From assembly GCA_012519705.1 (NCBI GenBank), contig JAAYPR010000031.1, positions 1-44,265 on the forward strand: a stretch of DNA of 44,265 nt. Reading direction: 5' to 3'. A program made the position numbers and the translations under genes. This DNA comes from Campylobacteraceae bacterium. Lineage in GTDB: Bacteria > Campylobacterota > Campylobacteria > Campylobacterales > Campylobacteraceae. Below the pieces are notes generated by a model that had not been told where the DNA came from, ran no database searches, and saw only the letters and a program-made list of their open reading frames with translations. This document shows positions 17,064-36,019 of the stretch, in pieces. The stretch's first letter is position 1, and every line of letters starts with the position of its first letter.

Positions 17064-17082
17064 GCTTTTTGCCTAACTTCTA
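17054..17082. terminator. Bidirectional terminator containing both stop codons
   Basis: Perfect 12-base stem TAGAAGTTAGGC (17054-17065) with GCCTAACTTCTA (17071-17082) and a TTTTT loop. The methyltransferase stop (TAG, 17061-17063) is in the left arm and the ddh stop (TAG, 17082-17080) in the right arm. T-rich sequence follows on the plus strand. Confidence 0.8.
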
Positions 17083-18075
17083 TAGTAAATTTTTGATTAC
17101 CATCTCCAAGCTCTCTTTGCTTGTTAGATAAGGTGGTACTTCAAAGATAGTTTTTGCACCGCTCTCGCCCATTTTGTTTAGTCTAGCAGCAGCTCTTGCA
17201 TAAGCTACCAGCACACTTGCTGTAAACTCAGGGTTTGAGCCTAATGTTAGAGCAAACTCTATTATCTGGTTATTTTCACTCTCTTTTATGCCAGTTTTTC
17301 CACCCCTAAAAACATGTCCGCCGTGTGGTAAACCACTGTGATTTTTATCAAGCTCTTCCTGAGTTATGAAATTCACCGTTGTATCGTAGTCTGCAAAATA
17401 GTTTGGCATATTAACTATCTCGCTCTCAACTCTTTTTCTCTCACTCTCTGTGTCGTTTTCAAGCACTACAAAGCACTCTCTTACGTGCTTTTCTCTTGTG
17501 GTATGCTCTTTAAAATTTCCACTTCTTACCTCATCTAAAATCTTACTTGATGGAATCGTGTATTGTTTCGCATCTTTTACGCCTTTTACTCTTCTAACCG
17601 CGTCAGAGTGCCCCTGCGAAATGCCTTTGCCCCAGAAAGTATAGGTTTTACCGTCATTTAAAATACTCTCCATTAAAAGCCTATTTAGCGAGAAAAGTCC
17701 TGGGTCCCAGCCAGTTGAAATGATGCCGATTTTCCCGCTTTTTTTAGCTACATTATCAACATTTTTATAATGCTCCAAAACTTTAGCATGAGTGTCAAAG
17801 CTATCTACGATGTTAAAGCGCTCTACAAACTCAGGGCTTTGCGTCATCAAGTCATTCGCACTACCCCCACAAAGCACCAAAACATCAATTTTATCTTTGA
17901 AACTAAGGCATTCATCTTGAGAAAAAACTGGTGAGTTATAAACCGTTTTTATACTGTTTGGATTACGCCTTGTAAAAATGCCAACTAGCTCCATGTCATC
18001 TGATGCATTTATAGCTATCTCGGCACCACGACCTAAATTTCCATAACCTACAATGCCTACTTTTATTTTTTTCAT
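17080..18075 (-). CDS. ddh: meso-Diaminopimelate D-dehydrogenase
   Basis: NADPH-dependent enzyme converting tetrahydrodipicolinate plus ammonia directly into meso-DAP, the lysine and peptidoglycan precursor, in place of the four-step acylation route. 331 residues. The Rossmann motif GIVGYGNLGRG (about 7-17) is followed by LVGIFTRRNP, VLCGGSANDL and VDSFDTHA (substrate contact region). STGWDPGLFSLNR and WGKGISQGHSDAVRRVKGVKDA are the strongest family signatures. Single-gene unit with AAAGGAC before the ATG. Campylobacters are mostly thought to use the succinylase route, so this may be an acquired or redundant pathway. Confidence 0.92.
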   Translation of the reverse strand: MKKIKVGIVGYGNLGRGAEIAINASDDMELVGIFTRRNPNSIKTVYNSPVFSQDECLSFKDKIDVLVLCGGSANDLMTQSPEFVERFNIVDSFDTHAKVLEHYKNVDNVAKKSGKIGIISTGWDPGLFSLNRLLMESILNDGKTYTFWGKGISQGHSDAVRRVKGVKDAKQYTIPSSKILDEVRSGNFKEHTTREKHVRECFVVLENDTESERKRVESEIVNMPNYFADYDTTVNFITQEELDKNHSGLPHGGHVFRGGKTGIKESENNQIIEFALTLGSNPEFTASVLVAYARAAARLNKMGESGAKTIFEVPPYLTSKESLEMVIKNLL

Positions 18076-18194
18076 ATTTGTCCTTTTTAGTGTTTTAACG
18101 CGGTATTTTAGCGAAATTTTGATAACTTAAACCTATTTTTTAGTATAAATTTAGTAAGATACAAGTTTTTAAGATGATAAAAATAGGAAAATTT

Positions 18195-19160
18195 ATGAAA
18201 ATAGCTATCATTAGACTCTCAGCACTTGGCGATATAATCCAAACTGCCATAGTTTTGGAATTCATCAAAAAACACTATCCTGATGCCAAAATAGACTGGT
18301 TTTGTGATGCAAAATTTGCTGGGATTTTGAAAAATCATAAATTTATAGATAACCTTATAACTCTAAATTTAAAAGATAAAAAGTTCAGTGAGAGTTATCA
18401 AATTTTAAAAAAACAGAACAAAAACAGCTATGACTTAGTTATCGACTTTCAAGGACTTATCAAATCAGCTGTAGTTGCTAGAGTGCTCTCAAAAAACACA
18501 GTTGGCTTTGATAAAAACAGCATTAGAGAGAGATTTGCCACAAATTTTTACAAACAAAAGGTTGCTGTTCCTTACGGGGAAAATGTGATTATCCGCTATC
18601 TTACGCTTTGCTCAAAGGCCTTAAATTTTGAGTTTAGCAAAGATGAAATTTTAACTAAAAAGCCTATTTTTAGTTTTGAACCTGCCAAAATTTCTAATAA
18701 AAAAAGAGTTTTGATTTCACCATTTGCAAGTGAAGCAAGTAAAATTTACATACATTTTGACGCAGTTATTAACACTTTAAAAGATGATGATTTAGATATT
18801 TTTATCTGCTGGGGGAGTGAGAGTGAATATGAAAAAGCCTTAGAACTTTCACAAAAAACTGGAGCGATTTTGCTTGATAAAATGAACTTACAAGAGATGA
18901 TAAACTTCATCTCAAATTGCGATTTAACCATCGGAAACGATAGTGGTATAACTCATCTTGCATGGGCACAAAACAGAGCCTCTATCACACTTTTTGGTAA
19001 CCGCCCAAGCTATAGAAATGCCTATACAACTGATATAAATTTAACTCTAGACACTGGCAAAAAAATAGATGCGATGAAAATCGACAAAACCGACTTTTGT
19101 ATAAATGAAATAGAACCAAATTTAGTTATAAAAACAGCAAAAAAACTTTTAGAAAGGTAA
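18195..19160 (+). CDS. waaC: LPS heptosyltransferase I
   Basis: Adds the first L-glycero-D-manno-heptose to Kdo of the inner core, on the cytoplasmic face of the inner membrane. GT9 family, 321 residues from the ATG at 18195. An in-frame ATG 21 bases upstream exists, but AGGAAAATTT lies just before 18195 and the family start is KIAIIRLSALGDIIQT. The N-domain carries KKHYPDAKIDWFCD, and the C-domain the ADP-heptose-site block IGNDSGITHLAWAQ (about 257). It opens the glycan cluster and lies 2 bases before a second GT9 gene. Confidence 0.93.
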   Translation: MKIAIIRLSALGDIIQTAIVLEFIKKHYPDAKIDWFCDAKFAGILKNHKFIDNLITLNLKDKKFSESYQILKKQNKNSYDLVIDFQGLIKSAVVARVLSKNTVGFDKNSIRERFATNFYKQKVAVPYGENVIIRYLTLCSKALNFEFSKDEILTKKPIFSFEPAKISNKKRVLISPFASEASKIYIHFDAVINTLKDDDLDIFICWGSESEYEKALELSQKTGAILLDKMNLQEMINFISNCDLTIGNDSGITHLAWAQNRASITLFGNRPSYRNAYTTDINLTLDTGKKIDAMKIDKTDFCINEIEPNLVIKTAKKLLER

Positions 19161-21504: not shown

Positions 21505-22386
21505 ATGAAAGGTATAATTTTAGCTGGAGGAAGTGGCACAAGACTTTATCCCATAACAAGAGGCGTTAGCAAGCAACTTGTTCCGATTTATAATAAACCT
21601 ATGATTTACTATCCGCTTTCTGTGTTAATGCTTGCAGGGATAAAAGAGATTTTAATCATCACAACTCCAGAAGACCAAAAAAGTTTTCAAAACTTACTTG
21701 AGGATGGTAGTGAGCTTGGTATAAAGTTAGAGTATGTTGTTCAGCCAAGCCCAGATGGGTTAGCTCAAGCCTTTATTTTAGGTGAAGAGTTTTTAGACGG
21801 TGATGATGCTTGTTTAGTGCTAGGAGATAATATTTTTTACGGACATGGACTTACAGAGCTTCTTTCTAAGAGTATAAAAAACGCAAAAGATGAAAATAAA
21901 GCAACTGTTTTTGGCTATTACGTAAAAGACCCCCAGAGATACGGAGTTGCTGAGTTTGACAAAAATGGAAATGTTATAAGCATAGAAGAAAAACCTAAAA
22001 CTCCAAAGTCAAATTACGCTGTTGCAGGGCTTTATTTTTACCCAGCTGACGTTGTAAAAAAAGCTAAAAATATAAAGCCAAGCGATAGAGGCGAGCTTGA
22101 AATCACAACTTTAAATCAAGAGTATTTAGCTGAAAATCGTCTAAAAGTTGAGCTAATGGGACGAGGATATGCGTGGTTTGATACAGGAACTCACGATAGT
22201 TTGTTAGAGGCAAGTCAGTTTATACAAACCATAGAAAAAAGACAGGCTTTAATGGTTGCATGCCTTGAAGAGATAGCTTATAATCTTGGCTATATTGACG
22301 AGAAGCAAGTTTTAAAACTAGCCGAACTGCTTAAAAAGAATGAGTATGGTGAATATCTTTTAAACTTGGTAAAAGGTGGTTTATGA
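21505..22386 (+). CDS. rmlA: Glucose-1-phosphate thymidylyltransferase
   Basis: First step of dTDP-L-rhamnose synthesis: dTTP plus glucose-1-phosphate gives dTDP-glucose. 293 residues, standard length. GGSGTRLYP (8-16) is the nucleotidyltransferase signature. [37 protein letters not shown] and [19 protein letters not shown] follow in family order, and [14 protein letters not shown] lies near 227. A 213-base AT-rich gap in front holds a possible TATGAT box (21415-21420). AAGGAT lies 9 bases before the ATG. First of four overlapping genes in the order A-C-D-B. Confidence 0.97.
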
Positions 22387-22961
22387 TGAAATTCACAAGA
22401 ACAGAAATTCCTGATGTTTTAGTTATAGAGCCTGTTGTTCATGGTGACAGCAGAGGGTATTTTAGTGAGACTTTTAGGAAGGATTTATTAGAAGATTTTT
22501 TAGGTTTTAAACTGAATTTTGTCCAAGACAATGAGTCAAAGTCATCTAAATTTGTTTTTCGCGGGCTTCATTTTCAAGCTCCGCCATTTGCTCAAACAAA
22601 ACTAGTTAGAGTTATAAAGGGTAGAGTTTTAGATATAGCAGTAGATATTAGAAGAGGTTCACCAACTTATGGAAAGCACGTTATGGTAGAGCTCTCAGAA
22701 GAGAATAAAAAGCAACTTTTTGTACCACGTGGGTTTGCTCATGGCTTTATAGTATTGGAAGATGATACTATATTTTCCTACAAAGTAGATAATTACTACA
22801 GCAAAGAGTGTGATAAAGGCATCTATTTTGCGGACGAGGCTTTAGGTATAGATTACGGTGTGGATATAAAAGAGTTTTTATTATCAGATAAAGACACAAA
22901 ACAGCCATTTCTGTCTGAGATAGAAGAGTTTTTTAAATACGAGATTAATTACTATGAATGA
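22383..22961 (+). CDS. rmlC: dTDP-4-dehydrorhamnose 3,5-epimerase
   Basis: Third step of dTDP-L-rhamnose synthesis. 192 residues. Cupin-fold RmlC signatures: [11 protein letters not shown] (21-31), RGLHFQAPP (60-68) with catalytic His63, [18 protein letters not shown], and PRGFAHGF. The C-terminal [10 protein letters not shown] holds the catalytic Tyr. It begins ATGATG on the rmlA stop (four-base overlap), so either Met may be used. The C-terminal few residues overlap rmlD by 8 bases. Confidence 0.96.
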
Positions 22962-23826
22962 GTTTAATATCCTTGTAACTGGGGCTAACGGACAACTTGG
23001 AAGTGAGTTAGAGGCACTTCATGGGCATTATGTTTATAACTTTTGCTTTGCTGGTAGAGACACTCTTGATATCACAAATTTAGATGCTATAAAAAACTAT
23101 ATAAAAGATAAAGATATAAATGTCATCATAAATTGTGCTGCTTATACGGCAGTTGATAAAGCAGAGAGTGAGAAAGAGCTTGCTTTTGAGATAAATGCGG
23201 ATGGTGTTAAAAATTTAGCTTTTGCATCAAAAGAGAATGACATAAAGCTAGTTCACATCTCAACAGACTATGTGTTTAATGGTGAAAACTTTAAGCCTTA
23301 CGTTGAGAGTGATAAAACGGCTCCAAAAGGTGTATATGGAGAGAGTAAGTTAAAAGGCGAAAATGAGATGATAGCTATAAATCCAGCTAATTCTATCATC
23401 ATAAGAACATCTTGGGTTTATGGGTACTATGGGAATAATTTTGTAAAAACTATGCTTCGTTTAGGAAAAGAAAAAAGTGAACTAGGTGTTATATTTGACC
23501 AAGCAGGCTCACCAACTTACGCTAAAGATTTAGCCAAGACCATACTTGATATAATTCCGCTTATAAAAAACGAAAATGTAGAAATTTACAACTACTCAAA
23601 TGAGGGAGTTCTCTCTTGGTATGATTTTTCAAAAGAGATAATGCGTATGGCAAAGCTTGATTGTAAAATAAACCCTATAGAAACAAAGGATTACCCAACA
23701 CCAGCTAAAAGACCGCATTTTTCAGTGCTAAACAAAGCAAAGATAAAAAAAGAGTTTGATATAAAAATTCCATATTGGAAAGACTCTTTAGATGAGTTTC
23801 TAATAAGACTAGGAGAGAGAAAATAA
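22954..23826 (+). CDS. rmlD: dTDP-4-dehydrorhamnose reductase
   Basis: Last step of dTDP-L-rhamnose synthesis (NAD(P)H). 290 residues, extended SDR fold. The Rossmann motif is VTGANGQLGSEL (8-19), with NCAAYTAVDKAE (60-71) and HISTDYVFNG (101-110). The catalytic YGESK is at 128-132, followed by RTSWVYG and DQAGSPTYA. It overlaps rmlC by 8 bases and rmlB by one (TAATG), so the four enzymes are made together. Confidence 0.96.
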   Translation: MNEFNILVTGANGQLGSELEALHGHYVYNFCFAGRDTLDITNLDAIKNYIKDKDINVIINCAAYTAVDKAESEKELAFEINADGVKNLAFASKENDIKLVHISTDYVFNGENFKPYVESDKTAPKGVYGESKLKGENEMIAINPANSIIIRTSWVYGYYGNNFVKTMLRLGKEKSELGVIFDQAGSPTYAKDLAKTILDIIPLIKNENVEIYNYSNEGVLSWYDFSKEIMRMAKLDCKINPIETKDYPTPAKRPHFSVLNKAKIKKEFDIKIPYWKDSLDEFLIRLGERK

Positions 23827-24863
23827 TGAAAACCATACTTGTAACTGGATGTGCAGGGTTTATAGGCTCAAATTTTGTGCCGTATTTTTTAGATAAATAT
23901 GAGAATTATAAAATTATAAATTTGGATTTACTCACTTATGCTGGAAATTTAGTGAACTTAAAAGAGGTTGAAGATCACCCAAGATATAAATTTATAAAAG
24001 GCGATATTTGTAACCGTGAATTAGTAGAGTTTATCTTTAGCGAATATGACATAAGAGGTGTTATACATTTCGCTGCTGAGTCGCATGTGGATAACTCTAT
24101 AAAAAACCCAGGTGTTTTTGTAGAGACAAACGTGAACGGCACATTTGCACTTCTAGACGTGGCTAAAAACTACTGGATGAGTAAACCCTTTATTTATAAA
24201 GATGAGTATAAAGGGTGTAGATTTCATCATATCTCAACCGATGAGGTTTATGGAACGCTTTCAGATGACCCAAAAGATTTGTTTACTGAGACAACTCCCT
24301 ATGCTCCAAACTCGCCTTATTCAGCAAGTAAAGCATCAAGCGATATGATAGTAAGAAGTTATGTTGAAACTTATGGGCTTGACGTGGTTATCACGAATTG
24401 TTCCAACAACTACGGACCAAAACAGCATGATGAAAAACTAATACCGACAATTATAAGAAACGCTCTAAAAGGAAACAAACTTCCTATTTATGGTGATGGT
24501 AAAAACATTCGTGACTGGCTATATGTGCTTGACCATTGTAAAGGCATAGACCTTGTTTTTCATAAAGGCAAAAAAGGCGAAGTTTATAACATCGGCGGTA
24601 GAAATGAAAGGACAAACTTACAGATAGTCGATGCTATTTGCAAAATTTTAGACGAGAGAGTTCCAGCCTCACAAAATGGCTTAAATATAAAGAGCTATAA
24701 AGAGCTTTTAAGCTTTGTAGAAGATAGAGCAGGACATGATAGACGTTACGCCATAGATGCAACTAAAATAGAAACTGAGCTTGGTTGGAGAGCTGATGAG
24801 AACTTTGACAGTGGGATTATAAAAACTGTTGAGTGGTATTTAATTAAATACAATTACTTCTAA
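23826..24863 (+). CDS. rmlB: dTDP-glucose 4,6-dehydratase
   Basis: Second step of dTDP-L-rhamnose synthesis: dTDP-glucose to the 4-keto-6-deoxy sugar, with bound NAD. 345 residues, extended SDR. GCAGFIGSN (8-16), FAAESHVDNS (82-91), HISTDEVYGTL (135-145, catalytic Asp-Glu) and YSASK (165-169) are all present, and GDGKNIRDWLYV binds substrate. Last of the rml genes. The convergent GT2 gene ends 145 bases downstream. dTDP-4-keto sugar may also feed other deoxysugars, but the complete A-C-D-B set points to L-rhamnose. Confidence 0.97.
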   Translation: MKTILVTGCAGFIGSNFVPYFLDKYENYKIINLDLLTYAGNLVNLKEVEDHPRYKFIKGDICNRELVEFIFSEYDIRGVIHFAAESHVDNSIKNPGVFVETNVNGTFALLDVAKNYWMSKPFIYKDEYKGCRFHHISTDEVYGTLSDDPKDLFTETTPYAPNSPYSASKASSDMIVRSYVETYGLDVVITNCSNNYGPKQHDEKLIPTIIRNALKGNKLPIYGDGKNIRDWLYVLDHCKGIDLVFHKGKKGEVYNIGGRNERTNLQIVDAICKILDERVPASQNGLNIKSYKELLSFVEDRAGHDRRYAIDATKIETELGWRADENFDSGIIKTVEWYLIKYNYF

Positions 24864-27056: not shown

Positions 27057-27830
27057 TTGAAAGATTTAGAACTAATCGCAAAAAAAGAGTTTGAAGTTTC
27101 TAAAGATGAAATAATCTCTTTGGTTTTTGAAGGTAAAAACTACTGGCTTAAAAAAGCAAGAGAGACAAAACCTGATAAAATTCAAGACTTTTTTTATAAA
27201 TTTATACCTTTTGAGCTACTCATTCCGCCTTTAAGAAAAAGCAAAGAAGAAGCCCTAAATTTTGAGGTTTCAAAGCTTGAAAAGCTCTATAATTTAGGCG
27301 TAAATGTCCCAAAAATCGCCATTAAAAATAGCGAATTTTTTGTCTTAGAAGATAGTGGCGAGAATTTAAACGGAGTTTTAAGAAACAAAGAATTAAATGA
27401 AAAAGATTTTTATCACTATATCCATTTAGCGTTAGTTGAGCTTTCTAAAATTCACAACCTTGACTCTTTTCACGGCGGAAGTCAGTTAAGAAATTTCACC
27501 CTAAAAGATGGTAAGGTTTTTGTAATAGATTTTGAAGAGAGTTTTAAAGATGGCACCGATATAAAAAAGCTTCAATATAGGGACTTTTTGCTGTTTTTGC
27601 TCTCATTTTTAAAGATGAAGGAGCTTAGTTTTAAGGTGAATTATGAAAGGATAATCCATAAGTATTTAGAGCTTTCATCAAATTTTGAGTTTAAAGATAA
27701 ACTAGTGAAATTTAGTAAAAAACTTAGTCCTTTTTTATGGCTTTATGAGAGAGAATTTATCAAAAAAAGAGTTGGAAGTGATGTGAGATATTTCTTTGAG
27801 TTAATCAAAATTTTAAAAGAGATGAAGTGA
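27057..27830 (+). CDS. Kinase-fold protein, LPS kinase/Bud32-like (first of two)
   Basis: 257 residues from a TTG. The only nearby ATG (27044) runs into a stop, and no good ribosome site is seen. Kinase-fold marks: a probable ATP lysine in YWLKKA (Lys32/33), a helix-C Glu in EEALNFEVSKLEKL (about 70), the catalytic-loop variant HGGSQLRN (139-146), and the metal Asp in VIDFEES (Asp158). The loop has Gly where protein kinases have Asp. Position in a core locus suggests sugar (heptose) phosphorylation, but the target is inferred. 59 bases precede the next gene. Confidence 0.7.
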   Translation: MKDLELIAKKEFEVSKDEIISLVFEGKNYWLKKARETKPDKIQDFFYKFIPFELLIPPLRKSKEEALNFEVSKLEKLYNLGVNVPKIAIKNSEFFVLEDSGENLNGVLRNKELNEKDFYHYIHLALVELSKIHNLDSFHGGSQLRNFTLKDGKVFVIDFEESFKDGTDIKKLQYRDFLLFLLSFLKMKELSFKVNYERIIHKYLELSSNFEFKDKLVKFSKKLSPFLWLYEREFIKKRVGSDVRYFFELIKILKEMK

Positions 27831-27889
27831 GTTTTAAAAGCTATTAAGCACTTTTTAGCTAAAATCTTAGTTTATTAAAATTAAGGATT

Positions 27890-28645
27890 ATGTTTTTGAG
27901 TAGATATGAGATTCACGTTGATTTTGAGAGTTTTAAAGATTTTTTGCTAGGTATAAAAACTCATTTTGCAAAAAACTTAGGAAATATCCACAAAGCTAGA
28001 AATGAGATAAAAGTAATAAATCACCAAAACACTGACCTAGTTGTCAAATCTTTTAAAATCCCACATTTTCTAAACAAAATTATCTACACTTTTTTTAGAA
28101 ACACAAAAGCGAAAAAATCCTACGAACACGCTTTAAAAATAGGAAATTTTACCCCAAAACCTATTGGGTTTATAGAGTTTTATAAATTTGGCTTATTAGA
28201 TGAGAGTTACTTTATAAGTGAGAAATTTGAGTATGATTTTACCATTAGAGAGCCACTTTTGGATGCTGATTTTCCAGATAAAAGTGAGATTTTTAGGGCT
28301 TTTGCTAAATTTACATATGACTTACATGAGAGCGGAATTTATCATCTTGACTATAGTCCGGGAAATATTTTGATAAAAAAGCAAGGAAGCGGATATATTT
28401 TTAAATTAGTTGATATAAATAGGATGAAATTTCTGCCTTTTGATGTGAGCTTAAGAGCAAAGAATTTTGAAAAACTATGGGCAAAAGATGAGGATTTAAA
28501 AATTATAGCAGGTGAGTATGCAAAACTTTTAAACTATGATGAAAAAGAATTTATAAGCTTAGCACTAAAACACTCTCAAAGCCTAAAAAAACGAAAAAAC
28601 TTCAAAAAAAGCCTAAAAAAATTAATTAGAAAAGAGAAAAAATAA
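27890..28645 (+). CDS. WaaP/InaA-type lipopolysaccharide kinase (second of two)
   Basis: 251 residues. ATP lysine in LVVKSFKIP (Lys53), then the full catalytic loop HLDYSPGN (152-159, Asp154/Asn159) and the metal motif LVDINRMKF (Asp175), very close to the WaaP/InaA LPS-kinase pattern. A Lys-rich C-terminal tail (about 230-251) may bind the membrane. Likely phosphorylates inner-core heptose or Kdo. TTAAGGA precedes the ATG, and the stop overlaps the next ATG by one base. It starts a run of nine tightly packed or overlapping genes to waaL. Confidence 0.82.
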   Translation: MFLSRYEIHVDFESFKDFLLGIKTHFAKNLGNIHKARNEIKVINHQNTDLVVKSFKIPHFLNKIIYTFFRNTKAKKSYEHALKIGNFTPKPIGFIEFYKFGLLDESYFISEKFEYDFTIREPLLDADFPDKSEIFRAFAKFTYDLHESGIYHLDYSPGNILIKKQGSGYIFKLVDINRMKFLPFDVSLRAKNFEKLWAKDEDLKIIAGEYAKLLNYDEKEFISLALKHSQSLKKRKNFKKSLKKLIRKEKK

Positions 28646-29376
28646 TGTCACTAATTAGCGTTATGTATCATCATCTAAATAGCGATAGATGCTCAAATGA
28701 TGTGGGGATTTTTGAAGAGCATTTAAGATATATAAGTAAGAATTTCACAAGCGTTTTCCCAGGCGAAGATGTGGGACAAAAATCCATCTGCCTAACATTT
28801 GATGATGCTTATGCTGATTTTTACTTTTTAACCTATCCGCTGCTTAAAAAATATAACCTTAAAGCAGTTTTAGCCGTTCCAACAAAATATATTTTAGATG
28901 ATACTGATTTGAGTGCTGAAACTAGGATGAATTACGAGCATAATGACCTTTTTATAAACTATGAAAAAGCTACTTTTTGCACCTTTAAAGAACTAAAAGA
29001 AATGCTTGATAGCGGCTTAGTTCAAATCGCCTCACACTCACACACTCACACAAATTTACTAGAAAATGGCGTGAGCTTAGATGATGAGTTAAAACTTTCA
29101 AAAGAGATTTTGGAGGCAAAGTTAAATATCAAGGTTGATAGCTTTTTCTTCCCTTATGGCAAATACAACGCTGAAATTTTAGAAGAGACAAAAAAACTCT
29201 ACAAATACGCTTTTCGTATCGGAAATGCAGTGCATAGAGATTTTAGTGGAATTAACGGCGTGATTTATAGAGTAAATGGGGACGGGCTAAAAAAAGCTGA
29301 TGAGATTTTTACCATGTCAGCCATGATGAGATATAAACTCAAAGCACTAACTAAGAAAATAAGTAGGAAAATTTAA
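28645..29376 (+). CDS. Polysaccharide deacetylase (NodB homology) family
   Basis: 243 residues. It opens SVMYHHLN, and the NodB motifs are present: LTFDDAYAD (50-58, base and metal Asp), IASHSHTHTNL (128-138, metal His131/His135) and FFPYGKYN (about 158). CE4 enzymes remove N- or O-acetyl groups. No signal peptide or anchor is evident, so it would act in the cytoplasm on a core intermediate, unlike exported peptidoglycan deacetylases. It overlaps both neighbours by one base, tying it to the kinase and glycosyltransferase. Substrate inferred to be an acetylated core sugar. Confidence 0.85.
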   Translation: MSLISVMYHHLNSDRCSNDVGIFEEHLRYISKNFTSVFPGEDVGQKSICLTFDDAYADFYFLTYPLLKKYNLKAVLAVPTKYILDDTDLSAETRMNYEHNDLFINYEKATFCTFKELKEMLDSGLVQIASHSHTHTNLLENGVSLDDELKLSKEILEAKLNIKVDSFFFPYGKYNAEILEETKKLYKYAFRIGNAVHRDFSGINGVIYRVNGDGLKKADEIFTMSAMMRYKLKALTKKISRKI

Positions 29377-30125
29377 TGATAAGTGGTGTAGTTTTAGTTA
29401 AAAATAACGCCAAAACCTTGCGTAAAACCTTGCAAAGCTTGGAGTTTTTAGATGATGTTGTAGTTTATGATAACGGCTCGACTGATGGTTCACTAGAAAT
29501 GGCTAAAGAGTTTAAAAATGTGAACTTAGTTCAGGGCGAGTTTATGGGCTTTGGAAAGACCAAAAACCACGCTGCAAGTTTTGCTAAAAATGAGTGGATT
29601 TTGATAATTGATAGTGATGAAGTGGTAGATAATGAACTAAAAAACACTCTTTCAAACTTAAATTTAGACAAAAACATAGTTTATAAGCTTAAATTTAAGG
29701 CTTTTTATAAAGATAGAGAGGTTAAATACTGTGGCTGGAATAACCAAAAAATCAAACGCCTTTATAACAAAAACGTAACTTCATACAACCAAAACGATGT
29801 GCATGAAGATATCATCACAGACTCTCTTAAAATGGAACTTTTGGGCGGCTATGTGGAGCACTATAGTTATGATAGTATTTCGCAATTTGTTCAAAAAGCC
29901 GACCTTTACTCTACTCTTTTTGCTAAAAATAACGCCGGAGTTAGAAAATCAAGCCCAACAAAAGCGTTTTTTAACGCAAGTTACTCGTTTTTTCGCACAT
30001 ATTTTCTAAAAAAAGGATTTTTAGATGGATATGTGGGGCTAGTGATTGCGGTTTCGCACGCCGTAACTAATTTTTACAAATATATAAAACTTTACGAGTT
30101 AAACAATGAACTTACTGATAACTAG
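29376..30125 (+). CDS. GT2-family core glycosyltransferase, WaaE/KdtX-like
   Basis: 249 residues. MISGVVLVKNNAKTLRKTLQSL starts the GT-A fold. VVYDNGSTDGSLEMAKEF and the DXD motif IIDSDEVV (78-84) follow, then the WaaE-family block FYKDREVKYCGWNNQKIKRLYN (split over about 115-136) and HEDI. WaaE enzymes add beta-1,4-glucose to heptose I, which is a likely role here. Start on TAATG with the deacetylase stop. Its last 20 bases overlap the next GT9 gene. Confidence 0.87.
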   Translation: MISGVVLVKNNAKTLRKTLQSLEFLDDVVVYDNGSTDGSLEMAKEFKNVNLVQGEFMGFGKTKNHAASFAKNEWILIIDSDEVVDNELKNTLSNLNLDKNIVYKLKFKAFYKDREVKYCGWNNQKIKRLYNKNVTSYNQNDVHEDIITDSLKMELLGGYVEHYSYDSISQFVQKADLYSTLFAKNNAGVRKSSPTKAFFNASYSFFRTYFLKKGFLDGYVGLVIAVSHAVTNFYKYIKLYELNNELTDN

Positions 30126-31041
30126 ACACGATAAAATCGGCGATTTTGTCCTAACCCTGCCGCTTTTTAAAGCTATAAAGGAGCACTGTCCTAGCGTAAA
30201 ACTAACAGCGCTTGTATCAAAAGTAAATTTTGATTTTGCTAAGAGCTTAGACTTTATCGATGATACGATTTTATACGATAAAAACGATTTAAACAAAACC
30301 TTAGAAGAGATAAAACTGGGGAAATTTGACGCGAGTATATCCTGCTTTATAGATACAGATTTAGGAAAACTGCTCTTTAAAAGTGGAATTAAAAAAAGAG
30401 TTGCACCTGCAACAAAAATAGCTCAAATTTTCTTTAACTCTAGGGTAAAACAAAGACGAAGTAAGGTAGAAAAAACAGAGTGGGGGTATAATCTTGACTT
30501 GGCAAAAGCTATTTTTCCTGATATCAAACCTAGCTTTGAACGCCCAATTTTAAATCTAGATGTAAAAAAAGAAAAAAGAGTTATTTTTCACGCTGGATTT
30601 GGCGGGAGTAGCGATGGAAATTTGAGCTTAGAAGACTATCTAAATTTGGCTAGAAGTATCAAAGATAGCGGATATGAGATAGTTTTTAGCTTTGGACCAG
30701 ATGATGTGAAGTCAAAGGAATTTATAGAGTCAAATTTGGATTTTCAGGCTGTGATTTACGATTCAAAAGGCACTTTGCTTGAATTTACTAAATTCATAGC
30801 AAGTGGGGCACTTTTCGTTAGCACTTCAACAGGACCTATGCATTTAGCAGGGGCTACAAATACACGCACACTATCGTTTTTTGGAGATAGTTTGTTTGCA
30901 AGTAGCAAAAGATGGGCGACAATAAGCGATGAGAGCTTACAAAATAACTTTATGCTAAGCCAAAACTACTCAAGAGAGGATTACCAAAAAATAGAAAATC
31001 GCCTAAAAGAAATTTTAGATAAAGAGGTTAAAAATGCTTAA
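30106..31041 (+). CDS. GT9 heptosyltransferase-family glycosyltransferase
   Basis: 311 residues. MNLLITRHDKIGDFVLTLPLF is the GT9 start, with VIFHAGFGGSSDGNLS in the linker and the donor block FVSTSTGPMHLAGATNTRTLSFFG (split, about 243-266). It differs from waaC and waaF and is probably a third heptosyltransferase (WaaQ-like) for a side-branch heptose. Overlaps the GT2 upstream by 20 bases and the next gene by 8, implying coupled translation. Confidence 0.87.
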   Translation: MNLLITRHDKIGDFVLTLPLFKAIKEHCPSVKLTALVSKVNFDFAKSLDFIDDTILYDKNDLNKTLEEIKLGKFDASISCFIDTDLGKLLFKSGIKKRVAPATKIAQIFFNSRVKQRRSKVEKTEWGYNLDLAKAIFPDIKPSFERPILNLDVKKEKRVIFHAGFGGSSDGNLSLEDYLNLARSIKDSGYEIVFSFGPDDVKSKEFIESNLDFQAVIYDSKGTLLEFTKFIASGALFVSTSTGPMHLAGATNTRTLSFFGDSLFASSKRWATISDESLQNNFMLSQNYSREDYQKIENRLKEILDKEVKNA

Positions 31042-32098
31042 AGAGCCTTTTGTTTGGGACAGCTATTCAGACCAGCCTCACGTCATAAAAGATAAGAATT
31101 TTAAGAAAAACGCAAGGGAAAAACACGCCTTTGACTACCTAAAAATGCTACTTTCATCGCTTTTTATCCTGCCGCTTGCTTTTGTTTTAATGCGGTTTTT
31201 TAGGGGAAATTTGAAAGTAAAAAATAGCGAGTTTTATGGAATTGGGGTAAATTTGGACAAAGATGATGGCAAAAACACTCAACAAAACTTAGTCCAAGAA
31301 CTAGGCGTTAAAAATTTGCTTATCAGAGTGCCACTTTGGGACACAAGAAATTTAGACAAATACGTAGAGTTTGCCAAAAGCTTTGGGGATAAAAATATCA
31401 TGATAAATATCATGCAAGATAGAGAAAATATAGAAAACCATGAACTTTTAAAAACAAATTTAGAGCAGATTTTTACTAAATTTGATGGAATTTGCTCTGA
31501 GTTTCAAGTGGGCTCAACCATAAATAGACTAAAATGGGGATTTTTCGCACCAGCGGAGTATCTGGAGTTTTACAAGGTTGCTCAGGATTTAAGAGACGAG
31601 AAATTTCCACACTTTAAGCTAATTGGCCCAAGTGTGATAGACTTTGAGTATCACTACAACGTCTCAACTATGTTTAACTTTCAAAAAATCAAATTTGATA
31701 AAATTTCCGCTCTACTCTATGTGGATAGAAGGGGTGATCCTGCAAACTATCAATACAGGTTTTTTAACTTAAAAAGCAAGATTGACCTGCTTTTTGCCCT
31801 AACAAAACTCTCCCCAAAATGTGCAAATGAAATTTACATAACAGAGACCAACTATCCACTTGCAAATACCGCACCTTATGCTCCAACGAGTGAAAAAGAG
31901 TGCGTAACTATAGAAAAATACACAGAGTTTATGGTGAAATACCACCAAATCGCTAAAAAAAGCGGGAAAATAAAAAAAGTTTATTGGCATCAGCTAATCG
32001 CCCCAGGGTATGGGCTAGTTGATAACCGTGATGGCAAGATAGTCAAAATGCCACAATTTTACGCATATAAAAAGATGATAAATGAAGATTTTAGTTGA
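31034..32098 (+). CDS. Membrane-anchored glycosidase-like TIM-barrel protein
   Basis: 354 residues. A basic cytoplasmic lead (1-36), one membrane span (about 37-55), then a domain resembling clan GH-A glycosidases: YGIGVNLDKDDG, LLIRVPLWD, SEFQVGSTINRLKWGFFAPAE and IYITETNYPL (267-276), where Glu271 sits as the nucleophile would. The acid/base position, usually Asn-Glu before xxNR, reads Ser161-Thr162. It may therefore be non-hydrolytic or use another residue. It lies between a GT9 and waaF, overlapping both (8 and 17 bases). A role in core assembly at the periplasmic face is inferred. Confidence 0.65.
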   Translation: MLKEPFVWDSYSDQPHVIKDKNFKKNAREKHAFDYLKMLLSSLFILPLAFVLMRFFRGNLKVKNSEFYGIGVNLDKDDGKNTQQNLVQELGVKNLLIRVPLWDTRNLDKYVEFAKSFGDKNIMINIMQDRENIENHELLKTNLEQIFTKFDGICSEFQVGSTINRLKWGFFAPAEYLEFYKVAQDLRDEKFPHFKLIGPSVIDFEYHYNVSTMFNFQKIKFDKISALLYVDRRGDPANYQYRFFNLKSKIDLLFALTKLSPKCANEIYITETNYPLANTAPYAPTSEKECVTIEKYTEFMVKYHQIAKKSGKIKKVYWHQLIAPGYGLVDNRDGKIVKMPQFYAYKKMINEDFS

Positions 32099-33053
32099 AA
32101 TTCCAAACTGGCTAGGGGACGCTGTGATGGCAACTCCTGCTGTGCAAAACTTAATTACCACCTATCCGGATGCAAAGATTACCATCCTTGGTTCATACAC
32201 TTCAAGTTTCGTGTTTAAAAACTATCCAAATGTGGAAAAATTTATGATAAATGAGAGTAAAAAAGGCGGGAATAGGTTTTTAAATTTGATAAAACTTGCT
32301 AAGAGTTTGGGTGAGTTTGATTTAGCTATCTCATTTAGACGGAGCTTTTCATCAAAATTTATGATGTTTTTTATCAACTCTAAGCGTAAATTTCAGTATA
32401 GAAGACTTACCAAAAATGAAATTCATCTAGCTATTCGATACAATGACTTTCTAAACAAAGCTTTGGGTATAAACACAAAAGCTGGTGATTTAAAGCTTTA
32501 TTATAATGCTTTTAAATTTCCAAAGCCAACTCTTGGGATAAACCCGGGTGCGACTTACGGAAGTGCAAAAAGATGGTATCCAGAAGAGTTTGCAAAAGTT
32601 GCCATAGAACTATCAAAAACTTACAATATAGTTATCTTTGGCGGAAAAACAGAAGTAGAAATCGCAAACGATATAGAACAAATTCTTGTGCTTAGTGAAG
32701 TAAAAAACTACCAAAATTTAGCCGGAAAGACAAGTGTTAGCGAACTAATTGAGAAAATCGCAGGGCTGTCGCTGTTTATCACAAACGATAGCGGCCCTAT
32801 GCATATCGCAGCGGCTTTTAAAATCCCAACTATCGCCATCTTTGGACCAACTAAATTTAGTGAGACTTCACAGTGGCAAAACACGTTTGGTAAAATCGTA
32901 ACCAAAAACTTAGCTTGTAGCCCTTGTATGAAACGAACCTGTCCGCTAAAACATCACAACTGTATGAAGATGATAACGGCAGATGATGTATTAGAAGCGA
33001 TAAATGAACCTAAAAAAGTAAAAACAGAAAAGGAAAAAAATGAAAAAATTTGA
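32082..33053 (+). CDS. waaF: LPS heptosyltransferase II
   Basis: Adds the second heptose to heptose I of the inner core. GT9, 323 residues. MKILVEIPNWLGDAVMATPAVQNL is the WaaF-type start. LAISFRRSFSSK, GINPGATYGSAKRWYPEEFA and FITNDSGPMHIAAAFKIPTIAIFG follow, as in waaF. A C-terminal Cys-rich block (ACSPCMKRTCPLKHHNCM) is also usual. It begins within the 3' end of the preceding gene (17 bases) and overlaps the acyltransferase by 14, keeping inner-core and lipid A steps on one transcript. Confidence 0.95.
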   Translation: MKILVEIPNWLGDAVMATPAVQNLITTYPDAKITILGSYTSSFVFKNYPNVEKFMINESKKGGNRFLNLIKLAKSLGEFDLAISFRRSFSSKFMMFFINSKRKFQYRRLTKNEIHLAIRYNDFLNKALGINTKAGDLKLYYNAFKFPKPTLGINPGATYGSAKRWYPEEFAKVAIELSKTYNIVIFGGKTEVEIANDIEQILVLSEVKNYQNLAGKTSVSELIEKIAGLSLFITNDSGPMHIAAAFKIPTIAIFGPTKFSETSQWQNTFGKIVTKNLACSPCMKRTCPLKHHNCMKMITADDVLEAINEPKKVKTEKEKNEKI

Positions 33054-33936
33054 GTATAAAATCACATATTATATCTATGTTATCTTATATACCATTTTTA
33101 AAATAACACCGAAAAAACTAGCTAAATTTCTAATAGATAGCTTTCTTTTTCTTACATTTCCGCTCTCTGCTAGATATAACAAAGTTGGTATGGCGAATTT
33201 AGACCTAGTTTTTAAAGAGACCAAAACAAAAGATGAAAAAAAGAAAATTTTGTTTAATTCATACAAAAGCCTAGCTTATAATATGTATGAACTTTTGGAA
33301 AACCAAAACTTAAAAAAAGAGCAAATTTTAGAAAAAATGACGGTCTTAAACGGTGAAATTATAAGTGATGCTTTAAAAACTGGTAGAAAAATCATCTTTA
33401 TAACCGCACATTATGGTGGCTGGGAGATAACCCTACCAGGAATTGCACTAATGTATGATATGAAAGTTGGAGTTGTAAATAAAAAGATGAGAAATCCTTA
33501 TATTCAAGAAATTTACGCAGCCGCTAGGGAGAAAAATAACATTACCATGATAGAAAAGCACTCAGCTGCTAAAGGAATGCTAAAAACCCTAAGAGAAGGA
33601 AATCAGGTAGCCATTGTGATAGACCAGTACACTGATAAAGGTTGCGAGATAGAGTTTCTAGGCGTTAAAGAAACAGCGACTGATACGGTATCAAGACTTG
33701 CCATGAAGCTTGACGCTCTAATCATTCCGATTCTTACAACAAAAAATGAGTTTAGAAAATATGAAATTACCATATATGAAGCGATAGATCCCTTAAAAAT
33801 AGAAGCTGAAAACAAGGTTTATGAAATCACTAAGCTTCAAAACGATATAATCTCAGATCAAATTTTAAAAGTCCCAGACTACTGGCTTTGGCAACATAGA
33901 AGATTTAGGACATATAATGAAAACATCTATCAGTAA
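33040..33936 (+). CDS. waaM: Lipid A biosynthesis late acyltransferase
   Basis: Adds a secondary acyl chain to Kdo-lipid A at the inner membrane (HtrB/LpxL family, called WaaM in Campylobacter). 298 residues. N-terminal hydrophobic segment (about 10-45), then the catalytic HX4E in ITAHYGGWEI (His124/Glu129). MRNPYIQEIYAAAREKNN and VAIVIDQY are further family blocks, and VPDYWLWQHRRFR lies near the C-terminus. AAAGGAAAAAA precedes the ATG. It overlaps waaF and the GT32 gene (14 and 20 bases). Confidence 0.93.
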   Translation: MKKFEYKITYYIYVILYTIFKITPKKLAKFLIDSFLFLTFPLSARYNKVGMANLDLVFKETKTKDEKKKILFNSYKSLAYNMYELLENQNLKKEQILEKMTVLNGEIISDALKTGRKIIFITAHYGGWEITLPGIALMYDMKVGVVNKKMRNPYIQEIYAAAREKNNITMIEKHSAAKGMLKTLREGNQVAIVIDQYTDKGCEIEFLGVKETATDTVSRLAMKLDALIIPILTTKNEFRKYEITIYEAIDPLKIEAENKVYEITKLQNDIISDQILKVPDYWLWQHRRFRTYNENIYQ

Positions 33937-34729: not shown

Positions 34730-36019
34730 ATGATAAAGATAAATTATGAAAAAACTTACTTTTATATGGCACTGCTTTTTGCCTTTACTATGCCTATCTC
34801 GAGGGCGGCAATAAGCTTTTTTATCATCGCTTTTCCACTACTTTGGATAATAGAAGGGGATTTTAAAAGAAAATGGGAAGAGATAAAAGAGTCTAAATTC
34901 TTACTTGTTTTTATGGTTTTTTATGCAGTTATACTCATAAGTGCTATCTTTTTCTCAGATGATGGAAAAACTGCTTTTAAATTCTCAAGACTCTATCTCT
35001 ACTGGATAACCATCTTTGTCTTAGCAACTTCGCTTAAAAAAGAGTGGATAAGACCACTTATAACTGCGTTTTTGTTTGGGATGCTTGTTAGTGAAATTAT
35101 AGCTTATGGTGTATTTTTTGAAATTTGGGAATGGAATACTGCAACTAAGAAAAATCCAAGCCCATTTATGATGCATATTGACTACAGTGTATATTTAGCA
35201 TTTACCTCTATACTTCTTTTTAGCAGAATTATCTCAAAAAACTACTCTTTAAAACAGAAATTTTTTATGGGACTGTTTTTCTTAAGCACTACTGGAAATC
35301 TTTTTTTACAAGAAGGAAGAGCTGGTCAAGCTGCTTATATTATAGCAATCATGGTGATGTTTTTTTTACATTATAGATTTAGAATAAAAACTGTAATTTT
35401 TTCAATTCTATCCATTGTTGTTATTTACTCTATAGCTTTTAATGTAAGCGATACTTTTCAAAAGAGAGTTTTTAGAACCATAGATGAAATAAAAATAATA
35501 TCATCTGGAAATTTAGGCACCTCATGGGGAATTAGAATAGGTTTTTATCTAACCACATATGAAATTCTAAAAGAAAATCCTATTTTTGGAATTGGACTTG
35601 GGGATTTTGAAGAAGAAACTGCAAAAATTTTAGCTAATGAAAAATTTAAAGATTACCCAAAGAAGTTTATGAGTTCAAACCACTACCATAATCAATTCCT
35701 GCAATGCACAGTTCAAATGGGGTTAATAGGGCTCATTTTCACCCTAACTCTTTATTTCTTAGGCTTTAAGATGGCTCTTCAAACAAAAGATAGAGAGTTA
35801 AGAGATATTTTTACTCTTTTTATGGTCGTTTATACTATAAGTAGCTTTGCTGATCCACTCTGGAATAAGCAGTTTACTCAAATCATCTGGGTTTTTGTCA
35901 TCTCTATGATGATAGCAAATACTAAATTTGAAAGACAAGAAGCAAAGATAAAAGAAAAAGAGCTGATGTCGAAAAAAAGAAAAATACCTAGAACTAGAGT
36001 TTATAAAGACCAAAATTAA
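34730..36019 (+). CDS. waaL: O-antigen ligase/WaaL-family membrane protein
   Basis: 429 residues with about ten hydrophobic helices. The Wzy_C motif region [20 protein letters not shown] (about 200-219, with the conserved Arg) and the later periplasmic loop [15 protein letters not shown] (about 318-332, key His) match O-antigen ligases, which join O-chains from undecaprenyl carrier to core at the periplasmic face. Wzy polymerases share these features, but core-locus position favours WaaL. The last codons form half of a perfect palindrome, and the stop overlaps the convergent gmhA stop by four bases. Confidence 0.88.

Follow-up and report, generated by a model that had tools for sequence, protein, structure and literature searches.

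Three adjacent genes on a 44,265-nucleotide stretch of DNA from a Campylobacteraceae bacterium (positions 1 to 44,265 of contig JAAYPR010000031.1; hereafter the window) pose the question of whether two kinase-fold proteins and a deacetylase form one pathway for modifying the lipopolysaccharide (LPS) core or are neighbours with different tasks. The genes, designated K1, K2 and DEAC, lie at 27057–29376 in an LPS or lipooligosaccharide (LOS) core locus of a 1.72 Mb genome assembled in 52 contigs. The answer that we consider somewhat more probable than not is that the stretch is a junction of two functional pieces: K2, DEAC and the family-2 glycosyltransferase (GT2) gene that follows them, GT2c, make up the one, and the other is a separate protein, K1, which lacks the catalytic aspartate of the HxD motif and would act at the step of heptosyltransferase I (WaaC). 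K2, DEAC and GT2c are the ordinary part, consisting of known kinds of enzyme in a new arrangement with good functional precedent; K1 is the unusual part. This reading is built on motifs, conservation, synteny, gene fusions and the predicted fold of K1, from which we infer every substrate and reaction proposed below. The features concerned are:

27057..27830, plus strand: K1, 257 amino acids, TTG start, kinase-fold protein without the HxD catalytic Asp (profiles, AlphaFold2, fold match)
27471..27494, plus strand: catalytic-loop motif of K1, HGGSQLRN (residues 139–146), with Gly141 in the place of the HxD Asp (alignment to a hidden Markov model, HMM)
27528..27539, plus strand: DFEE motif of K1 (within IDFEES; D158 and E160 invariant), the counterpart of DFG (homologue alignment)
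27890..28645, plus strand: K2, 251 amino acids, WaaP/Kdo-kinase-like, with an intact HxD motif, HLDYSPGN (PF06293, below cut-off)
28645..29376, plus strand: DEAC, a 243 amino acid polysaccharide deacetylase without a signal peptide; D53, D54, H131, H135 (PF01522)
29376..30125, plus strand: GT2c, family-2 glycosyltransferase directly after DEAC (Pfam, synteny, tree)

A check of open reading frames (ORFs) and motifs bore out the position of the three genes and the kinase motifs HGGSQLRN and HLDYSPGN given in an earlier, sequence-only reading of this DNA. The overlaps that it described at K2/DEAC and DEAC/GT2c (TAATG) amount to one base each, and 59 bases separate K1 from K2.

Profile searches placed K1 nearest to the Bud32 and RIO kinases, with 29.9 bits to TIGR03724 (Bud32; cut-off 125) and 15.8 bits to PF01163 (RIO1; cut-off 22); PF06293, the family for WaaP and for kinases of 3-deoxy-D-manno-octulosonic acid (Kdo), gave 11.6 bits (cut-off 21.3). 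The HMM alignment sets the HGG of K1 on the HGD of Bud32. A search of the PDB sequences with K1 alone returned no match at E 10. Among 62 distinct homologue strings none carries the HxD Asp, the residue there being Gly in 40, Arg in 18 and Ala in 4; after contained copies were merged, the remaining 58 strings (Gly 36, Arg 18, Ala 4) were still without Asp. Judged from these strings, the missing Asp is a trait of the whole K1 family. The ATP-site Lys32 is kept in all 61 strings aligned at that position, and Glu70 (C-helix), Asp158 (the DFG Asp), Glu160, Arg175 and Asp176 are found in 62/62. Asn146 and Gln143 each occur in 44 of the 62; in the other 18 strings the former is replaced by Asp, and the latter is kept in the Gly- and Ala-type strings. 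The 18 Arg-type relatives are divergent (HGRPALRD, HSRPALRD, HSRPAIKD). In eight genomes of family f6, presumably the Arcobacteraceae, the ratio of nonsynonymous to synonymous substitution (dN/dS, NG86) was 0.12–0.52 for K1 versus 0.08–0.24 for the neighbouring acyltransferase (28 pairs each); K1 thus looks to be under purifying selection and to evolve faster than this neighbour. Sequencing error or gene decay as the source of HGG was rejected, because no homologue string has the Asp and because of the purifying selection.

The sequence-only reading had regarded K1 as a divergent kinase, and structure prediction agreed. An AlphaFold2 model from a 22-sequence alignment (mean predicted local distance difference test score, pLDDT, 94.7) shows a kinase fold, the best matches being PRPK/Bud32 (Z 15.9) and, lower in the list, WaaP (6dfl_A, Z 13.8 over residues 1–253). 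Bud32/PRPK and Rio1 rank ahead of WaaP, rows less than one Z apart being counted as ties. K1 therefore has the predicted kinase fold with the ATP-site Lys, the Glu and the DFG Asp that mark the family; the HxD Asp is absent.

The distribution of the genes was examined in a family-level draw of 120 genomes and a phylum draw of 377 Campylobacterota genomes; the K1, K2 and DEAC phylum draws were taken as one 377-genome set, their genome handles agreeing. K1 matches occur in 21 of the 120 genomes, four of them close (the source genome, G036, G008 and G009), and in 45 of the 377 at E 1e-12. The match is 3e-29 or better in 27 of these, three of which are Arg-type (G204, G222, G254). A scan of named genomes, which finds near patterns only and so does not show absence elsewhere, gave 18 K1 loci, every one in Campylobacterota. 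On plasmids a single weak match was obtained, in a Shinella record.

The neighbours of K1 point to the inner core. Genes for WaaC and a lipid A acyltransferase (lpxL) lie upstream of the HGG- or HAG-type K1 in 18 of 19 f6 genomes, some of which have a gene for about 120 amino acids in between, and the order waaC, acyltransferase, K1 is found in all six named loci L049–L054 (Arcobacter, Aliarcobacter, Malaciobacter and two metagenome-assembled genomes, MAGs). Of the 12 remaining named loci, not all from separate genomes, nine have an MsbA-like gene directly next to K1; for both neighbour genes tested MsbA was the top NCBIfam match, under its cut-off. In L062 and L063, from one Sulfurovum MAG, a gmhB-type gene stands ahead of the MsbA-like gene (family model run for L062). 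In genome G036, of the same genus as the window, a 583 amino acid ORF without an internal stop joins an N-terminal WaaC-like part to a C-terminal K1. Because of the waaC-lpxL and MsbA-like neighbourhoods and the WaaC-like fusion, we assign K1, as the most likely option, to the lipid A-Kdo-heptose I stage.

K2 (E 1e-12) was detected in 83 of the 377 genomes and a close DEAC (E 1e-45) in 30. Of the latter 29 also have K2 (Fisher p 2.5e-20, phylogeny not corrected for), as do 24 of the 27 genomes with the better K1 matches (22/24 with Gly-type K1 only). All three genes are present in 10/377 genomes; eight of these have a Gly-type K1 and carry the trio inside some 18 kb, and G204 and G254 have only the Arg-type. 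The proposal that the three genes share an LPS-core locus and co-occur outside this species was thereby upheld, Aliarcobacter vitoriensis (L051) having all of them in one stretch. The companion proposal, that they form one module, was not supported and was set aside as too strong. K1 and DEAC are not associated among the 83 K2 genomes (both in 10, Fisher p 0.28; Gly-type K1 only, 0.53) or among the 26 f6 K2 genomes (both in 7, p 0.97; Gly-type K1 only, 0.99), and of the loci read, just the window and G036 have K1 directly next to K2.

K2 had been called a canonical kinase, which is correct for its HLDYSPGN motif but not for its sequence as a whole, which is divergent: its score against PF06293 (19.9 bits, E 5.4e-4) is narrowly under the cut-off of 21.3, and the NCBIfam Kdo-kinase model NF002475 matches weakly (21.3 bits, cut-off 142). 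The HxD...GN pattern, with its Asp and the following Asn, is kept in 76/76 homologue strings. A structural model of K2 from a two-row alignment had a pLDDT of 43. G315 encodes K2 and a GT2 as a single 507 amino acid protein (L179:3011-4534) with 25.2 bits to PF06293 and 66.3 bits to PF00535, both above cut-off; as read from its sequence, this natural fusion connects the two. In genomes without DEAC, K2 is often followed at once by GT2c (G009, G346, G209 and others). In G036 (L037:7658-13488) K2 and DEAC are separated by an O-antigen-ligase-type gene, and a GT4 gene separates the family-9 glycosyltransferase gene GT9a from the gene for a 354 amino acid protein; GT9a and the latter gene are listed below for the window.

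DEAC matches PF01522 with 72.1 bits (cut-off 23.1), so that its earlier description as a NodB deacetylase holds at the level of the deacetylase family; the NodB label itself is loose (15.6 bits to the NodB model), a PgaB/IcaB-like protein being closer (best NCBIfam match PgaB, 83.4 bits, under the cut-off of 321.9). D53, D54, H131 and H135 are present in 31/31 homologue strings; they correspond to the Asp-Asp pair and the two metal-binding His of the polysaccharide deacetylases. Residues 1–40 contain no hydrophobic stretch (maximum mean Kyte-Doolittle value over 15 residues -0.06), in agreement with the absence of a signal peptide reported earlier. By analogy with a counterpart in Acinetobacter baumannii, DEAC is a putative deacetylase of a core amino sugar.

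GT2c lies directly 3' of DEAC in all 30 DEAC genomes, which fits the suggestion in the sequence-only reading that deacetylation is coupled to glycosylation. K2 adjoins DEAC in 25 of the 30 (20 co-directional, 5 divergent). A tree of 40 GT2c rows was constructed, 30 with DEAC and 10 without; the latter came from 12 DEAC-less K2 loci, the other two having no GT2c or a cut one, and the rows L054 and the second L153 ORF were removed ahead of this tree and the larger one described below. The DEAC label switches twice on the 40-row tree versus 9.1 times in shuffles (0/500 as low). The 30 DEAC-positive rows as an exact clade were rejected (approximately unbiased test, p 0.0035), since two DEAC-less rows nest inside. 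Most GT2c proteins from DEAC loci fall into a single lineage, shifted at positions 85, 107, 109, 124, 125 and 164, which were picked on the 40 rows with the two nested rows set aside. The residues there are D, F, A, Q, K and S in 29/30 DEAC-type sequences (the exception being L149) and S, R, N, D/E, variable and mostly P in eight of the ten DEAC-less ones; the two nested rows are changed at five of the six positions.

The follow-up of the signature took in all but two (G381 and G344) of the 42 K2 places that were negative for DEAC and had no earlier locus. A GT2c-like ORF was found in 13 of these 40, of which ten lack the signature, two have it in full and one has all but one residue. Eight of the 13 entered the larger tree, five of 27–34% identity being dropped, and this set comprised 29 sequences with both DEAC and signature, 15 with neither, three with the signature only and one with DEAC only. 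These exceptions led us to reject as too strong the idea that the GT2c residues are an unfailing reporter of DEAC. As signature GT2c exists without a close deacetylase, the pattern suggests that GT2c can work without DEAC, with transfer first and deacetylation after.

Several observations weigh against the interpretation as two pieces. K1 scores under every curated family cut-off among its Pfam and NCBIfam matches. In the window it shares a locus with waaC, yet adjoins neither waaC, lpxL nor msbA, and the K1 genes of L090 (f6), L055, L065 and L066 are directly beside neither kind of neighbourhood. The DEAC-GT2c coupling is not absolute, because three genomes keep a DEAC-type GT2c without a close deacetylase (none at E 1e-3 in G353 and G137, a distant one in G146), and with only two independent evolutionary pairs of DEAC and the GT2c signature there are too few for a test. 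Lastly, according to excerpts of a study of Pseudomonas aeruginosa WaaP (PMC6147952), the variants K51A, D163A and D188N fail to support growth and E78A shifts the minimal inhibitory concentration of EDTA 128-fold; by analogy with D163A, loss of the Asp in K1 may mean that kinase activity has been lost.

Under the two-piece interpretation, K2 would be an ordinary kinase of the WaaP type, its substrate an inner-core sugar that is probably heptose. DEAC would take the N-acetyl group off an amino sugar added by GT2c (or off its donor), and the outcome of DEAC plus GT2c would be a free-amine, glucosamine-type core residue. The K1 family across Campylobacterota would have kept the ATP/Mg site with the HxD Asp swapped for Gly, Ala or Arg, and K1 would work at the WaaC step, with nascent lipid A-Kdo-heptose as its target. 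Since WaaP D163A does not support growth, the ordinary mechanism is unlikely for K1. The intact nucleotide site, together with Gln143 and the invariant Glu160, favours some ATP-dependent reaction, so that K1 is most likely still a transferase that depends on ATP but arranges its catalysis differently, with Glu160 (of DFE) and Gln143 as candidate residues; less likely, it would be a non-catalytic partner of WaaC, a role that the WaaC-like/K1 fusion keeps in play. The broader proposal that K1 is a Campylobacterota family of HxD-less proteins with a complete ATP/Mg site, working with heptosyltransferase I through new catalysis, non-phosphoryl transfer or nucleotide-sensing regulation of WaaC, is put forward tentatively, at a little under even confidence.

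The non-catalytic role in its strict form would make K1 a true pseudokinase: a scaffold for WaaC (or K2), or its allosteric partner, able to bind ATP or some nucleotide-like ligand yet catalysing no transfer. The complete lack of the HxD Asp among its homologues, the fusion in G036 and the need for this Asp in WaaP (excerpts of PMC6147952) all agree with it; we nonetheless think it unlikely, as the Lys, the C-helix Glu, the usual Mg ligands (N146, D158) and the family-specific Q143 and E160 are kept in the Gly- and Ala-type strings, more conservation than binding alone would lead one to expect. An intact ATP/Mg site without the Asp would also suit a reaction that uses ATP without phosphorylation, AMP transfer for example. 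In the parts of the literature drawn on, SelO is argued to remain active without this Asp (PMC3281104), and AMP transfer is reported for SelO and glutamylation for SidJ (PMC10870513). The searches turned up no similarity of K1 to SelO or SidJ, the comparison of residues covering the missing Asp, and such chemistry appears quite improbable. Least credible is an obligate module of all three genes that performs two phosphorylations and a deacetylation: their adjacency in the window and the trio genomes, eight of them compact and with Gly-type K1, speak for it, but the independence of K1 and DEAC in K2 genomes and the rarity of K1 beside K2 make it very doubtful. For DEAC the alternative is action on the nucleotide sugar ahead of transfer rather than on the transferred sugar. 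This was proposed for A. baumannii protein 2901, where the mutants of both genes of the pair lose glucosamine (GlcN) altogether (excerpts of PMC10936431). The three genomes with DEAC-type GT2c (in one case altered at a single residue) but no close deacetylase are easier to understand if GT2c transfers the N-acetylated sugar, and donor deacetylation is accordingly the less favoured order, though a serious contender.

The core locus also holds rmlA, rmlC, rmlD and rmlB, heptose-synthesis genes of the gmhA, hldE, hldD and gmhB kinds, and GT9 and GT2 transferases. Its further members are:

18174..19160, plus strand: waaC, heptosyltransferase I (TIGR02193, 245.4 bits, above the cut-off of 185.3)
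30106..31041, plus strand: GT9a, family-9 (heptosyltransferase-like) glycosyltransferase (Pfam, synteny)
31034..32098, plus strand: 354 amino acid conserved protein of the same gene run, without a Pfam or NCBIfam match
32082..33053, plus strand: waaF, heptosyltransferase II (TIGR02195, 192.5 bits, cut-off 134.6)
33040..33936, plus strand: lpxL/waaM-type lipid A acyltransferase (PF03279, 153.2 bits)
34730-36019: O-antigen-ligase-type gene, member of the core locus

The 354 amino acid protein has a single hydrophobic stretch, and its gene is kept in the core loci of several genera, either between GT9a (or a GT4 gene) and waaF or right after GT2c. An odd neighbour, a diaminopimelate dehydrogenase gene (17080-18075; TIGR01921, 413.8 bits, cut-off 180.6), adjoins waaC upstream.

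The Arg-type relatives of K1 have other surroundings. In the four g4 loci the divergent HGRPALRD relatives (L045:9239-9973, L046:8857-9585, L047:8724-9512, L048:8364-9104) neighbour a PepSY gene, which a ribonucleotide-reductase small-chain gene follows in L045–L047, the three loci tested (Pfam). In G051 (L044) the neighbour is a major facilitator superfamily gene, with nucleotide-sugar genes about 4–6 kb off. BLAST detected no homologue of waaC, waaF or lpxL in these five stretches (L044–L048). A relative of the HGRPALRD kind is present in 14 g4 genomes of the family-level draw. Convergent pairs of K1 paralogues, HGGSQ plus HGASQ, stand beside an MsbA-like gene at L056:7944-9466, L058:7725-9696 and L061:2564-4278, and in L055 and L056 the HGASQ copy comes after an NAD-dependent DNA ligase gene. 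The window's K1 is 67% identical to that of Arcobacter cryaerophilus versus 48% to its nearest same-genus homologue, and rmlA and rmlB are 84% and 81% identical to the same Arcobacter locus (window 27057-27830 and 21505-24863); these identities suggest an exchange of core genes with Arcobacter.

In the open-access literature no paper describing K1 was found, nor one on a core kinase of Campylobacterota (searched as Campylobacter lipooligosaccharide heptose kinase WaaP) or on a pseudokinase with a heptosyltransferase; the parts drawn on of a Campylobacter jejuni LOS review (PMC7248181) and of the Arcobacter butzleri genome paper (PMC2147049) name no such kinase or deacetylase. Core phosphates strengthen the outer membrane of P. 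aeruginosa (excerpts of PMC6147952). A conserved Asp-less K1 family, fused to WaaC in one species, offers a direct test of whether an HxD-less fold acts on LPS, and the K2-DEAC-GT2c unit predicts which species of Campylobacterota carry a free amino sugar in the core.

Among known systems, WaaP of P. aeruginosa (PDB 6dfl) resembles K1 in its kinase fold (192 residues aligned, root-mean-square deviation 3.7) and LPS-core setting, and shares the HxD motif with K2. Unlike WaaP, which depends on its HxD Asp, K1 has none, and it is under the PF06293 cut-off; His168 of WaaP corresponds to Asn in both K1 and K2 (WaaP data from excerpts of PMC6147952). The atypical kinases Bud32/PRPK and RIO are closest to K1 in both fold and profile searches, but K1 has no Asp of the HGD motif, scores far under the Bud32 and under the RIO1 cut-off, and lies in an LPS-core neighbourhood. 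The gene for KdkA, the Kdo kinase of Pasteurellaceae, may lie near that for heptosyltransferase I. KdkA is a small kinase that acts at the innermost core (function from excerpts of PMC5577588), the place proposed for K1; unlike it, K1 has no HxD motif, and at E 1 the search with K1 does not list NF002475.

WabN of Klebsiella and Ecf1 of Escherichia coli plasmids are deacetylases of LPS-core sugars. WabN is likened to DEAC by the table label 'Deacetylase'. A tblastn search with DEAC also found genes on E. coli plasmids that carry the label of a polysaccharide deacetylase, in one case Ecf1 (about 28.5%). A functional precedent exists in A. baumannii, where a deacetylase gene is likewise followed by a GT2 gene, the two overlapping by 4 bases. 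Its GT2 has other residues than the DEAC-type GT2c at positions 85, 107 and 109, and the eight features annotated around these two genes, in a possibly incomplete table, include no kinase. The deacetylase resembles DEAC (31%, E 1e-17, hhalign probability 99) and the GT2 is 29% identical to GT2c. Matched by gene order, the pair is presumably pda/gtrOC3, described as adjacent Polysacc_deac_1 and GT2 genes (excerpt of PMC4172580), and also 2901/2900. In the available part of PMC10936431, deleting either 2901 or 2900 removes the core GlcN, which sits on a third Kdo, and 2901, like DEAC, has no secretory signal.

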